This document shows positions 6,799 through 37,328 of a DNA stretch of 64,000 nt, one piece after another. The position numbers and the translations under genes are program-made. Origin of the DNA: Microbacterium oleivorans. GTDB lineage: Bacteria > Actinomycetota > Actinomycetes > Actinomycetales > Microbacteriaceae. A model generated the notes under the pieces. It searched no databases. It had not been told where the DNA came from and saw only the letters and a list, made by a program, of their open reading frames with translations. Every line of letters starts with the position of its first letter. The first letter of the stretch is position 1. Location: contig NZ_MAYO01000003.1 in NCBI RefSeq assembly GCF_001691565.1, positions 2,035,851 through 2,099,850 on the forward strand, read 5' to 3'.

Positions 6799-6878
6799 GC
6801 CGCGGCATCCGACACGGTCTGCGGATGTGGAGAGCCCCGGCGCTCTTGCGAGGATGGGGAGGAGGGGCGAACGTTTCG

Positions 6879-6945
6879 CGAGACTGCACCCGCGCGACGA
6901 GGATGCGGCGCGTGGGCGCAGTCTCGTCGCACACGTGCAGTCTCG
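6879..6945. repeat. CGAGACTGCA inverted-repeat cluster
   Basis: CGAGACTGCACCCGCGC (6879-6895) pairs with GCGCGTGGGCGCAGTCTCG (6908-6926), giving a hairpin of about 17 pairs with two mismatches; a third copy, TGCAGTCTCG, follows at 6936-6945. It lies in the 216-base gap between the GNAT gene and recQ, which holds no gene. The core resembles the CGAGACTGAATAC termini seen at 13.9 and 23.4 kb. Confidence 0.6.
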
Positions 6946-7001
6946 CCGCCAAGGGACGAGGCGCGGGCGGGGCCCGGATCCGGGGCGAGGCGCAGCGGCG
7001 A

Positions 7002-13885: not shown

Positions 13886-13931
13886 ACCGACATTCTGCGC
13901 CTGCTCCGGCCGTTGTGCGCCGGGGCCCGGT

Positions 13932-14030
13932 GTTCCGTATTCAGTCTCGACGGATACTCATAAGGACGTGCCACACCGGATCGCCGGGCATCCGCCCGTC
14001 ATAGGTCGGCACCGAGACTGAATACCGAAC
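13932..14030. repeat. REPIN-like element, copy 1
   Basis: GTTCCGTATTCAGTCTCG (13932-13949) and CGAGACTGAATACCGAAC (14013-14030) are inverted copies with one mismatch in 18 bases, about 63 bases apart. The inner sequence is not shared with the copy at 23.34 kb. The element lies in the 242-base gap between the GH3 lipoprotein promoter and the symporter end; the gap holds no gene. Confidence 0.75.
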
Positions 14031-14080
14031 GCGTGTCAGCGAACACCGAACACGTGTCAGCGAACATCGAACACGTGGCG
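14025..14080. repeat. 21-bp tandem repeat
   Basis: CCGAACGCGTGTCAGCGAACA (14025-14045) is followed by CCGAACACGTGTCAGCGAACA with one change (14046-14066) and by a partial third unit, TCGAACACGTGG. It starts within the right terminus of the REPIN-like element, so it may have grown from it. Confidence 0.7.
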
Positions 14081-21917: not shown

Positions 21918-22472
21918 GTGGCCCGAACCCCCTTCCTCTCCACACGCGTCCTGCTCGTGTGCGCGGCGCTCGGGGTCGCCACGGGGCTGCTCGGCGGCGT
22001 CGCCGGGGCCGTCACACCCGTCGTCCTCGCGGTGGCGCCGTGGGCGTACGGACTCGTCCTCGGCTCGCACGTGCTGCCCGGGATCATCGCGCAGCAGGTG
22101 TTCCGGATGCCGCTCGTCGCCCTCACGACGCACGTCCTGGCCGCGCTCGTCGCCAGCGCCGTCAACCCGGCGTGGATCTGGCGCTTCGTCGGAACGGCGC
22201 TGCTGTTCGGCGCGATCCAGGAGGGCGTGGCCGCCCTCACCCGCTATCGCTCGTGGGGAGCGTGGCGCTTCTTCGCCGCGGCGCTCGTCATCGGCGTCCT
22301 CGTCGCCGCCGTCGTCTTCGCGGCCGCCGACCTCGGCAAGCTCGCCGTGTGGGCCCAGATCGCCTACCTGGTCATCGCCCTCGCCGGCCCGATCCTCTGG
22401 ACGGCCGCGGGACTCGCCCTCGGCGAGCGCCTGCGCCGGGCGGGCGTCGCCCGCGGAGTCAGGACCGGCTGA
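21918..22472 (+). CDS. ECF transporter substrate-binding S component (YkoE type)
   Basis: A 184-residue hydrophobic protein with five to six membrane segments that, by family, binds a vitamin precursor. The gene order S, fused ATPase, T equals YkoE-YkoD-YkoC, which imports the thiamine pyrimidine HMP in Bacillus relatives. The HVLPGIIAQQVFRMPLVAL stretch (residues about 51-69) is the region most like YkoE. The start is GTG, with no ribosome site but a TAGCCT seven bases upstream. The ligand is inferred from family and gene order only. Confidence 0.8.
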   Translation: MARTPFLSTRVLLVCAALGVATGLLGGVAGAVTPVVLAVAPWAYGLVLGSHVLPGIIAQQVFRMPLVALTTHVLAALVASAVNPAWIWRFVGTALLFGAIQEGVAALTRYRSWGAWRFFAAALVIGVLVAAVVFAAADLGKLAVWAQIAYLVIALAGPILWTAAGLALGERLRRAGVARGVRTG

Positions 22473-22473
22473 C

Positions 22474-24267
22474 GTGACCGACGACCCGGCGCCGCTGCTG
22501 CATCTGCGGGGCGTCGCGATCACCCATGACGGAGCGGATGCCGCAGCCCCGGCATCCGCCTCGTTCGACGTCCGCCCGGGTGAGGTCGTTCTGCTGCTGG
22601 GTCCGAGCGGATCGGGCAAGTCGACACTCGCGCTCGCGACCAACGGGCTGATCCCGCAGGCCGTGCCGGCGCGGCTCGAGGGCACCGTCGCGGTGCGCGG
22701 CCTGTCGACCCGCGAGACGCCGGTCGCAACCCTCGCCCGTCACGTCGGTATGGTGTTCCAGGATCCCGACGCGCAGTTGGTGACCGGGAGCGTCTTCGAC
22801 GAGGTCGCCTTCGGCCCCGAGAACCTGCGGATGCCGGGAGCCGATGTCCTCGCTCGCACCGAGCAGGCACTGCGTCGAGTCGGACTGTGGGACAGACGCA
22901 CGGAGAACCCCGACCGACTGTCGGGCGGCGGCAAGCAGCGGCTCGCGATCGCCTGCGCGCTCGCGATGGGGTCCGAGCTGCTCGTCCTGGACGAGCCGAC
23001 CGCCAACCTCGACCCGGCCGGCATCGAGGCCGTCTACGAGGCGCTCGCGCTCGTCGCGACCGAGGGACGCTCGATCCTGCTCGTCGAGCACAATCTCGAC
23101 GCTGCGGTCGAGATGGCCGACCGGGTCGTCGTGCTCGACGCCGAGGGGTGCACGATCGCCGACGGCGGCGTCGACGAGGTGCTCCGCGAGCGTGCCGACG
23201 AGCTCGATGCCCTCGGCGTCTGGCTGCCCGTCTCGACGATGGCCGCGCTCGCGCTGCGACGGGCGGGCTGGGACCTGCCGCGGCTGCCGCTCACCCCGGC
23301 GGAACTGACCGTGTCGCTCGAGGCTGCCGAGGCGCCGATGCCGTATTCAGTCTCCGCCGAAGAAGAGGATGCGACGTCCGCGGTCGTTCCGCCGAACGCC
23401 GGCAGCTTCACACGCCACGCCGAGTCCTCGAGACTGAATACCGAACAGTCGGCGAGGGAAGACCACCCGGCGGTCGAGGTGCGCGGTCTGACGCTCCGGC
23501 GCGGGCGGCGGACGGTGCTGCACGACGTCGACCTGACGATCGGGGCGGGCGAGTTCGTCGCCGTCGTCGGCGCGAACGGCGCCGGCAAGACGACGCTCGT
23601 GCAGGCGGTCGCCGGCGTTCTCACCCCGCCCCGCGGCACCGTGCGAGTCGACGGTGCGGACCCCGCGACCATCGCGCTCCGCGACCTGTCGCGGCGGATC
23701 GGCTTCGTCTTCCAGAACCCCGAGCACCAGTTCATCGCCCACACGGTGTTCGACGAGCTCGCCCACGGCCTGCGCGGTCGCGGACTCGACCCGGACGAGA
23801 TCCGCGCCCGCACCACCGACATGCTCACCCGTTTCGGCCTCGAGGCGAAGGCCGACGTGCACCCGTTCCTGCTCTCGGGCGGCCAGAAGCGGCGCCTCTC
23901 CGTCGGCACGGCGCTCATCGCCGGGGCCCCCGTGCTGGCCCTCGACGAGCCGACCTTTGGGCAGGATCGCGCCCGGGCCGACGACCTGCTGCGGCTGCTC
24001 CGCGATCTGAACGACGCGGGTACGACGGTCATCGTCGTCACGCACGACATGCAGCTGGTCGCCGAGTACGCCGAGCGCACCGTCGTCGTGCACGACGGTC
24101 GGATCCGAGCGGATGCCGCGACCCGCGACGTCTTCGCGGATGAGGCCCTGCTCCACGAGGCGGGGCTGCGGCGCCCGCCTCTGCAACAGGCGCTGCGGGG
24201 CGTCATCCGGCATCCGCAGCTCGCGGGGATCACCGCTCTCCGCGATCTCGCCGGGGGACGCGGATGA
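22474..24267 (+). CDS. ECF transporter ATPase, two fused ABC domains (YkoD type)
   Basis: A 597-residue protein with two ATPases. Domain 1: Walker A GPSGSGKST (about 44-52), Q-loop FQDPDAQ, signature LSGGGKQRLA, Walker B LLVLDEPTANLD, H-loop VEHN. Domain 2: GANGAGKTTL (about 368-377), FQNPEHQ, LSGGQKRRLS, VLALDEPTFGQD, VVTHD. All key residues are present in both. The linker (residues about 290-325) is encoded by a REPIN-like inverted repeat inserted in frame. GTG 22474 begins one base after the S gene stop, and the end overlaps the T gene by four bases. Confidence 0.93.
   Translation: MTDDPAPLLHLRGVAITHDGADAAAPASASFDVRPGEVVLLLGPSGSGKSTLALATNGLIPQAVPARLEGTVAVRGLSTRETPVATLARHVGMVFQDPDAQLVTGSVFDEVAFGPENLRMPGADVLARTEQALRRVGLWDRRTENPDRLSGGGKQRLAIACALAMGSELLVLDEPTANLDPAGIEAVYEALALVATEGRSILLVEHNLDAAVEMADRVVVLDAEGCTIADGGVDEVLRERADELDALGVWLPVSTMAALALRRAGWDLPRLPLTPAELTVSLEAAEAPMPYSVSAEEEDATSAVVPPNAGSFTRHAESSRLNTEQSAREDHPAVEVRGLTLRRGRRTVLHDVDLTIGAGEFVAVVGANGAGKTTLVQAVAGVLTPPRGTVRVDGADPATIALRDLSRRIGFVFQNPEHQFIAHTVFDELAHGLRGRGLDPDEIRARTTDMLTRFGLEAKADVHPFLLSGGQKRRLSVGTALIAGAPVLALDEPTFGQDRARADDLLRLLRDLNDAGTTVIVVTHDMQLVAEYAERTVVVHDGRIRADAATRDVFADEALLHEAGLRRPPLQQALRGVIRHPQLAGITALRDLAGGRG
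23341..23446. repeat. REPIN-like element, copy 2, inside the ECF ATPase gene
   Basis: CCGTATTCAGTCTC (23341-23354) and TCGAGACTGAATACCGAAC (23428-23446) are inverted relative to each other; the right end is identical to the right end of copy 1 over CGAGACTGAATACCGAAC. The insert keeps the reading frame and encodes the linker between the two ATPase domains. Confidence 0.75.
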
Positions 24268-25058
24268 CCCTCGACCCCTACGCGGACGGGCCGCCTGGCT
24301 TCCTCGCTCGCACCTCGCCCCTCGCGAAGCTCGCCGCGCCGCTCCCCGCGATGATCGTGCTCGTCGTCGCGCGCGACCTCGTCACGCCGCTCGTGTTCCT
24401 CGCGCTCGCGTACCTGCTGATCATCGTCGGCAGGCGGATGTCGGGGCGCGTCGCCGCGCTGCTGTTCCTCGGCATCCCGATCGGCGCGGTGATCATGGGT
24501 CTCGCGCTCGGGCTGTGGGTCGATGCGGGGCTCGTCGACGACACCCCCGCCGTCCTCCGGATCGGCGCGTGGACCCTGCACGCCGGCGCGATCGAGGCGG
24601 GTCTCGCGACGGGCGCGCGGCTCGCCGCGATCCTCGCGCTCGGCCTGATCGCGGGCCTCACGACGACGGGGCCCGACCTCGTCCGCGCGGCGGTGCAGCA
24701 GCTGCGCGTGCCGTACCGCATCGGGTACGCGGCACTCGCGGCGATCCGCTTCGTGCCCAGATTCGGCTACGAGCTCGAGCTGATCCGTCAGGCGCATCGC
24801 GTGCGGGGCGCCCACGGCGGGCGCGGGCCCGTCGCCGCGGTCGCACGCTGGTCCGGGTACGTCGTGCCGTTGCTGGCCGGGGCGATCCGGCACGCGGAAC
24901 GCGTCGCGCTGGCGATGGATGCCCGAGCGTTCGGCGCGCACCCCGATCGCACCGAGCGGCACCTGCTGCCGTGGCGCCGGCGCGACACCGTCTTCGTCGT
25001 GGCGTTCTGGGCCGTGTCTGCGGTGGTGCTCGCGGCTCTGTTCCCCTGGGGGCTCTGA
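24264..25058 (+). CDS. ECF transporter transmembrane T component (YkoC type)
   Basis: A 264-residue membrane protein with five to six segments. The coupling motif of the family is visible as ALAMDARAFGAH (about residues 211-222); an earlier FELIRQAHRVRG-like segment (ELELIRQAHRVRG, about 171-183) provides the other ATPase-contact helix. It links the fused ATPase to the S component. The ATG overlaps the ATPase stop as ATGA. With its two partners it makes a full solitary ECF transporter. Confidence 0.9.
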   Translation: MTLDPYADGPPGFLARTSPLAKLAAPLPAMIVLVVARDLVTPLVFLALAYLLIIVGRRMSGRVAALLFLGIPIGAVIMGLALGLWVDAGLVDDTPAVLRIGAWTLHAGAIEAGLATGARLAAILALGLIAGLTTTGPDLVRAAVQQLRVPYRIGYAALAAIRFVPRFGYELELIRQAHRVRGAHGGRGPVAAVARWSGYVVPLLAGAIRHAERVALAMDARAFGAHPDRTERHLLPWRRRDTVFVVAFWAVSAVVLAALFPWGL

Positions 25059-37271: not shown

Positions 37272-37328
37272 CGAGGTCCCGATCGGGCCGGGAAACGTCG
37301 CATCGTTTCCGGCTCGATCGGGACCTCG
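37272..37328. repeat. 57-bp hairpin repeat, copy 2 (possible bidirectional terminator)
   Basis: CGAGGTCCCGATCGGGCCGG (37272-37291, arm continuing to 37297) pairs with 37304-37328 at all but one position plus a one-base bulge; the loop is TCGCAT. It lies between the convergent GntR and acyl-CoA dehydrogenase genes. The left arm matches copy 1 at 28.02 kb except for one base. Confidence 0.8.

Follow-up and report, generated by a model that had tools for sequence, protein, structure and literature searches.

In the 64-kb stretch of Microbacterium oleivorans DNA analysed here (the window), a 111-bp element bounded by inverted arms lies in frame within a fused ECF-transporter ATPase gene, and belongs to a family of paired-arm elements (class 1) found across the genus Microbacterium. 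We propose that class-1 elements are REPIN-like satellites of a homing-type nuclease bearing a DUF559/MTES_1575 domain, which would be responsible for their movement, and we put the probability of this reading at a little over one half (about 0.56).

The element occupies positions 23337..23447. Its left arm, ATGCCGTATTCAGTCTC (23337..23354, plus strand, facing inward), is the weaker, with a matrix score of 22.5 against a maximum of 33.6, and its right arm, GAGACTGAATACCGAAC (23430..23447, minus strand), scores 29.2; a weak match to the central palindrome CGCGNRWTYNCGCG lies at 23381..23394 (12 of a maximum of 16 on an ad hoc score), giving arm-to-dyad distances of 51 and 60 bp. A sibling element of 101 bp at 13931..14031 is situated between two minus-strand genes that, read by eye, appear to encode a symporter and a glycosidase-like protein. 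The original prediction held that the inverted termini found at 13.93-14.03 kb recur at 23341-23446, and both GTATTCAGTCTC pairs are indeed present, at 13937-13948 (plus)/14014-14025 (minus) and 23343-23354 (plus)/23430-23441 (minus), with the predicted coordinates right to within a few bases. When the 64-kb window was scanned with an 18-bp weight matrix at the thresholds used, 13931-14031 and 23337-23447 were the sole inward pairs, and the same scan found no outward-facing pairs in it. The two elements carry the same 17-18 bp inverted arms and have unrelated interiors, in agreement with the earlier view that the termini are shared and the interiors are not.

The ATPase gene (22474..24267, plus strand), which we take to be YkoD, is a single open reading frame of 597 amino acids, and the element, translated as MPYSVSAEEEDATSAVVPPNAGSFTRHAESSRLNTE, keeps the frame in the linker between its two ATPase domains, as had been predicted. 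It is preceded by an open reading frame on the plus strand (21918..22472) that matches no NCBIfam family and is presumably a YkoE-like S component, and followed by an ECF T component (24264..25058, plus strand) with a weak CbiQ match under the NCBIfam cut-off. Other inverted structures were observed in the window: a 69-bp inverted element at 6878-6946, with ends GCGAGACTGCA and TGCAGTCTCGC and nested inner repeats, is possibly another arm class, and the inverted repeat CGAGGTCCCGATCGGGCCGGGAA, with an 11-nt loop, lies at 37272-37328.

That the terminal motif is repeated genome-wide was borne out in the 2.92-Mb window genome. A search with the class-1 arm GTTCCGTATTCAGTCTC, allowing up to three mismatches, gave 17 matches, sixteen of which form eight inward pairs while the remaining one is paired with a more degenerate arm, and the pattern read backwards gave none; a profile model recovered 18 matches, that is, nine elements read on both strands. 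For each of four single perfect cores (L001-L004) a degenerate partner arm was found. Three copies in this genome are intragenic and in frame, residing in the ECF ATPase, in another ABC ATPase that by eye reads as a putative ABC-F protein, and in an N6/N4 DNA methylase, where the copy lies in the linker after DPPFNTG. The in-frame linker copy, first described as unusual, is not a one-off, and in other species the corresponding linkers hold elements with different arms.

The architecture of the family was defined by scanning a collection of named genomes with GTATTCAGTC N(54-84) GACTGAATAC, which gave 86 stretches. Lengths were tallied first in 80 of these, containing 85 matches (L124-L129 were left out there and included in later analyses). 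Fifty-nine of the 85 matches are high in GC and nearly all from Microbacterium (one, of 78 bp at L092, is from another genus), with core lengths of 88 (n = 40), 87 or 89 (8), 76 (7), 98 (2), 75 (1), and 78 bp (1). The other 26 matches, low in GC and mainly from Flavobacterium, have lengths spread over 76-104 without a peak; as candidate family members they were rejected, since they look like another, tandem-type repeat. The Flavobacterium genomes (low-GC loci among L048-L123) carry CAGTCTCAGT/GACTGAATACTGAGAC tandem-type repeats that are apparently unrelated to the Microbacterium elements.

In 39 aligned copies of 88 bases, the arms and the central palindrome on the dyad are held in common, together with a faint CG signal three bases inward of either arm, and the remaining interior is near background. 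Among 120 de-duplicated elements, 82 are 100 bp long, 16 are 99 or 101, nine are 87-89, six are 110-112, and two are 102 and 107; the five longer elements overlap further half-sites. Judged by the best-matching centre, the dyad divides the 82 copies of 100 bp 50/50 in 70 cases and 60/40 in three. The long copies (110-112 bp) have arm-to-dyad distances of 50-51 plus 60-61 in six of six, and the short copies (87-89 bp) distances of 39-41 plus 47-49 in six of nine, the other three having no convincing centre. Class-1 lengths are therefore stepped by approximately 11 bp (about 88, 100, and 111 bp), a spacing close to one helical turn, which suggests that a protein complex grips both arms from the same side of the double helix.

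In 25 pairs of copies at the same locus (pairs of unequal length or with a spacer identity of 0.45 or less were left out), identity was 776/900 in the arms, 246/349 in the centre, 842/1264 in the spacer, and 855/1500 in the flank, an arm-versus-spacer contrast that is overstated because the copies were picked by their arms. The pair L101/L105 is an exception, its spacers being more alike than its arms. Symmetric complementarity of the class-1 spacer was 371/962, or 0.386, against 0.390 with shuffled partners, and indicates no hairpin. An RNA element was considered as a candidate and rejected, as the spacer is not complementary and no Rfam model matched in the window at the gathering threshold. 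By inspection, the class-1 arm has no internal stem, and some arms of other classes (AACTCCGGAGAT) hold a short palindrome. Within the arms 89.5% of cells are paired, compared with 87.3% after shuffling, and the covariation score, which relatedness of the copies can also produce, was reached in 2 of 500 shuffles. At many loci A is weakly favoured at position +20 beyond the arm, and some copies have TAGGCT-like boxes nearby that are perhaps neighbouring promoters.

Class-1 profile matches are present in at least 58 of 295 genomes of the genus (E <=0.01), with no more than 13 candidates scored in any one genome. At E 0.1, two-strand matches number 18 in the window genome, 10 in G015, 26 in G127, 20 in G223, 23 in G160, 22 in G185, 39 in G204, and 71 in G317. 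Local tandem arrays with units of approximately 157 and 194 bp, each with an element bearing CAACTCAGTCTG-type arms, were observed in G317 (L180, L181), and contigs of about 70% GC titled Stenotrophomonas maltophilia P13 (L046, L081, L120) carry class-1 matches under a title that looks wrong. Many class-1 copies occupy orthologous loci across species, a pattern more like retention than active spread. A search for a common gene beside the elements yielded many orthologous loci and no one function; one of these loci led to the DUF559 gene described below.

The chromosomal positions of the elements bear on a different interpretation, in which a structural protein bridges the arms at sites of chromosome architecture, such as the known Noc, SlmA, and P1 parS sites, and position rather than mobility is what matters. 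Among the matches listed, elements lie toward the origin in G223 (10/10 within 1.0 of 1.86 Mb), G160 (10/10 within 0.9 of 1.80), G185 (10/10 within 0.97 of 1.71), and G015 (4/4 within 0.44 of 1.46 Mb), that is, within roughly 50-57% of the half-chromosome in the first three and within 30% in G015. We nevertheless consider an architectural role very improbable: the listed sites of G317 extend to 1.18 of 1.90 Mb, on the dnaA contig of the window genome two copies lie about 1.25 Mb away from that gene, the class is recorded in at least 58 of the 295 genomes, the bias toward the origin may stem from old, conserved loci in that region, and the association with nuclease genes would be left unexplained.

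The intragenic copies were compared across species. ECF ATPase matches were found in 157 of 198 genomes. In 30 aligned orthologues the ECF ATPase linker is hypervariable and is not conserved as protein. In G167, the nearest relative (88% identical), and in two others the linker is 17 codons (51 bp) shorter and lacks the 111-bp element; as the gap is 51 bp and not 111, the linker alignment with these three nearest relatives reveals no clean empty site. The linker of an uncultured species contains a class-1 element of 87 bp, likewise in this frame (VPYSV..RLNTE). This agreement in frame between two distant species is what would be expected if the ECF ATPase conserved these residues as a protein motif and their likeness to the repeat were coincidental, an idea to which we give almost no credence given the hypervariability of the linker and the presence of the same DNA between genes and in the methylase, where part of it is read in a different frame (VRIQS..LNTE). 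The methylase copy recurs at the equivalent position in G015, M. memoriense, an uncultured species, G121, and G223, and weakly in G204 and G134, and the remaining species have other arms or none there.

A class-agnostic test of these linkers, accepting inverted ends of any arm sequence that scored at least 11.5 on a home-made score, detected such ends in 15 of the 28 ECF ATPase linkers that could be used, versus 3 of 72 control segments from the same gene, with 0.4 expected from codon shuffles; one of the 15 positives is G167, at the threshold and with different arms. Inverted ends were likewise detected in 9 of 30 methylase linkers versus 1 of 90 controls (0.7 expected), and AACTCC...GGAGTT arms are present in the linker at 7 of the 30 methylase loci. 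Variable linkers are repeated landing sites for inverted-end elements. A peptide repeat resembling S-L-S-E-R-G-T-S-E-T-K-R or V-V-E-R-A-K-R-D-E-T, with DNA like GGTCGTTGAGCGAGC and sometimes occurring twice, was also noticed in the ECF linkers of L208, L210, L211, L215, L220, and L221.

The candidate partner of class 1 is encoded at the trpS locus, where in six species at least two class-1 elements surround a gene of about 280 amino acids located in the nei-trpS interval and, in most cases, adjacent to a GNAT gene. This gene codes for a DUF559/MTES_1575 nuclease domain, and an element is often found directly upstream of it. Among nine small nucleases scanned, DUF559 exceeded the Pfam cut-off in eight, and AbiEi_4 matched three, one of them over the cut-off, so that a putative N-terminal AbiEi-type winged helix is weakly supported. 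A structure model of modest quality (pLDDT 61) gave I-Bth0305I as its best Foldseek match (3r3p; probability 1.00, TMt 0.75, E 0.053), followed by 3hrl, which was also matched by sequence (E 0.001). Residues E183, D210, E220, D222, and H227 are kept in 16 aligned paralogues and are likely to be catalytic. As modelled, the partner protein has the fold and active-site residues of an EDxHD/Vsr-type nuclease, and nuclease activity is predicted for it.

The association of these genes with paired arms extends beyond class 1. We defined a sandwich as an inverted-end element within 400 bp on each side of a gene, with arms sharing at least 11 nt, and applied this definition to 110 PF18741 places in 16 genomes (genes of 150-520 amino acids, with a few targets, L305 and L354, mis-called). 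Twenty of 88 callable nuclease genes of the genus are sandwiched, compared with 1 of 376 control genes (Fisher p 9e-15), in counts for which species are not independent samples and which depend on a home-made gene finder and home-made inverted-repeat scores; 68 of the 88 fail the test. The test and its cut-off were chosen after the first cases, and a fresh set, made up of loci from the order's other genera, shows a smaller excess (4 of 33 callable among 70 loci versus 1 of 376; Fisher p 2e-4). The lone control sandwich (L181) proved to be the DUF559 nuclease gene of G317 itself, which had remained among the controls because DUF559 homologues were excluded by means of an older database. With a cut-off of 9 nt, 28 genus genes, five genes of other genera, and three controls are sandwiched; an initial run at this cut-off had given 25/93 versus 2/122 with unequal flanks and some mis-called targets, and was repeated with equal flanks. 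Sandwich arms are gene-specific, and their elements are often present two to four times at a single fixed length, for example three of 75 bp in the window genome and, elsewhere, three of 68, two of 82, and four of 79. In L335 and L393 the flanking copies have nearly identical interiors, which suggests copying of whole elements whose interiors decay later. Matches to PF18741 occur in 72 of 79 genomes of the order, the best-scoring being large proteins of another type. We found no report linking DUF559/MTES_1575 to repeats in the open-access literature, outside of which subscription papers and preprints mostly lie.

Elements adjoining a gene for a DNA-binding protein could also be its operators. 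AbiEi antitoxins are autoregulators, and winged-helix nucleases might autoregulate in the same way, with the paired arms serving as looped binding sites and the scattered copies as a small regulon. The weak AbiEi-like matches, a helically phased spacing compatible with looping, and the frequent placement of an element just upstream of the nuclease gene would all agree with this. The sandwiches, however, place an element downstream of the nuclease gene as well, and 115 elements assigned by a home-made gene finder are in mixed contexts (39 convergent, 36 tandem, 26 divergent, nine intragenic, and five at edges); intragenic copies and local tandem arrays would be odd for operators, and we regard this explanation as unlikely.

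Correspondence between arm class and nuclease was examined locus by locus. The trpS-locus nuclease has class-1 flanks in G018, G167, G201, G223, G127, and an uncultured species. In G063/G122 and G186 the nuclease is flanked by AACTCCGGAGAT and AACTCCTC, and the same arms are also dispersed there. At the trpS locus of other genomes, G317 has CAACTCAGTCTG arms, the window genome has three 75-bp copies with GTGCCGTTCTCCGGA arms, and G160 has AACTCC-type arms, yet class 1 is dispersed in G160; no flanking arms were detected at the trpS locus of G015. In their N-terminal part the six class-1 nucleases are 46-66% identical to one another, versus 37-46% to the protein of the window genome. The nuclease of G185 is as close to the class-1 proteins (51-57% identical) but lacks a class-1 sandwich, which counts against class matching. 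None of the seven PF18741 hits in the window genome has a class-1 element within 18 kb. Because the trpS-locus nuclease of this strain carries the GTGCCGTTCTCCGGA class, the class-1 copies in the window look orphaned; they are probably orphans, and their partner in this strain seems to have been lost or replaced.

Dispersed copies have been demonstrated for a few arm classes only. At the loci examined, AACTCC-type inward pairs have spans of 73, 74, or 86 in 9 of 11 cases, against 0, 0, 0, 0, and 2 for five control motif pairs. The pattern AACTCC N(60-76) GGAGTT occurs in 132 of 149 genomes, with up to 73 copies per genome versus 0 to 4 for the reversed pattern, many genomes having just one to three copies and hardly exceeding the control. 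The bases 3' of AACTCC depend on the species (GGAGA, TCMGA, ACGGA, or TGCAA). For 11 of 19 sandwich arms no further match was found in the 18 to 169 kb of same-genome sequence scanned; the trpS class of the window strain had no further copy in 169 kb of same-genome sequence, overlaps and window included, and a looser scan of the window for this class gave matches at chance level.

The mechanism that we envisage assigns recognition of the arms, as an inverted pair, to the N-terminal winged helix of the nuclease; a multimer gripping both arms on one DNA face would account for the helical steps in length. Cleavage by the nuclease followed by host repair would then copy or move the element, in the manner proposed for RAYTs acting on REPINs. 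Such a system would have the nuclease gene as its single-copy centre and the dispersed elements as non-autonomous satellites, with in-frame copies surviving where the protein tolerates a variable linker. As regards movement, the comparisons made here revealed no excision, clean empty site, or target duplication.

REPINs are described, in the accessible text of the sources, as inverted pairs of short conserved ends at a set spacing around a less conserved spacer, located mostly between genes, and the RAYT transposase gene is flanked by the same REP repeats (PMC3116915, PMC3733652). Class-1 elements resemble them in having two conserved inverted ends at constant spacing (fixed lengths with steps of about 11 bp), in being dispersed mostly between genes, and in the flanking of an enzyme gene by the same repeats. 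They differ in that the partner is a predicted nuclease of Vsr/EDxHD fold and not a Y1 transposase, in that the class-1 end is by inspection not a REP palindrome and the spacer forms no hairpin, and in the central palindrome and helical-turn length steps of class 1. The Y1/RAYT transposase family (Y1_Tnp, PF01797) was found in 0 of 22 genomes and in 5 of 14 control genomes. On this ground membership of the RAYT/REPIN family was rejected; of the original description as REPIN-like, the paired inverted ends stand and the REPIN membership does not, and the REP-associated transposase expected elsewhere in the genome seems to be replaced by the DUF559/MTES_1575 nuclease.

Terminal inverted repeats, small size, dispersal, and an occasional intragenic location would equally suit MITEs mobilised by another transposase, to which the nuclease genes would be passengers or preferred targets. 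Class-1 interiors, however, are not shared between copies, orthologous ones excepted, and neither the helical-step lengths nor the gene-specific arms on both sides of nuclease genes would be explained; a few other classes, with interiors shared between flanking copies (L335, L393), are a MITE-like exception. A search for Y1_Tnp, the one family covered, identified no transposase for the elements. We judge a MITE origin improbable, and much less likely than satellites of the nuclease.

Other known systems share single features with these elements. CGTC REPs are tagged stem-loops for which, in the accessible text of the source, no dedicated transposase or enzyme was found and which lack a flanked Y1 partner (PMC3733652); both they and the Microbacterium elements are dispersed palindromic repeats without a flanked Y1 gene, whereas the latter are two-armed and linked to a nuclease. 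MTES_1575 is described, in the part of the source available, as a Vsr-type restriction endonuclease domain in a large HEPN-fusion protein (PMC3710099). The trpS-locus proteins resemble the EDxHD homing endonuclease I-Bth0305I and Vsr-like DUF559/MTES_1575 domains in predicted nuclease fold and in acidic and histidine residues, and, unlike those examples, stand alone as small proteins that probably begin with a winged helix, their genes having paired-arm flanks. Rickettsia palindromic elements, of approximately 150 bp, are reported in the accessible text to lie in frame in unrelated protein genes (PMC10969869). The Microbacterium elements are likewise in frame in unrelated genes (ECF ATPase, ABC ATPase, and N6/N4 methylase) but have class-1 interiors that are unrelated between copies and are mostly intergenic. 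To our knowledge, no enzyme is known for the Rickettsia elements.

More broadly, the odds seem to us about even that these findings represent a second, independently evolved REPIN-like world, in which winged-helix nucleases of EDxHD/Vsr fold would drive paired-arm satellites whose arms are specific to each paralogue and change with it, old classes being orphaned and layered in the genome and protein linkers serving as recurrent landing pads. Our reading would give a widespread and little-studied nuclease family a function and a selfish life-style, and it offers a way to test whether partnerships between REPIN-like satellites and an enzyme arose more than once. The many replicate classes offer material for studying how DNA recognition and target repeats change together. 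Furthermore, repeat-element DNA, best known in this role from Rickettsia, can make variable linkers of conserved proteins in free-living bacteria; if the proposal is true, these elements help to write protein linkers across the genus.
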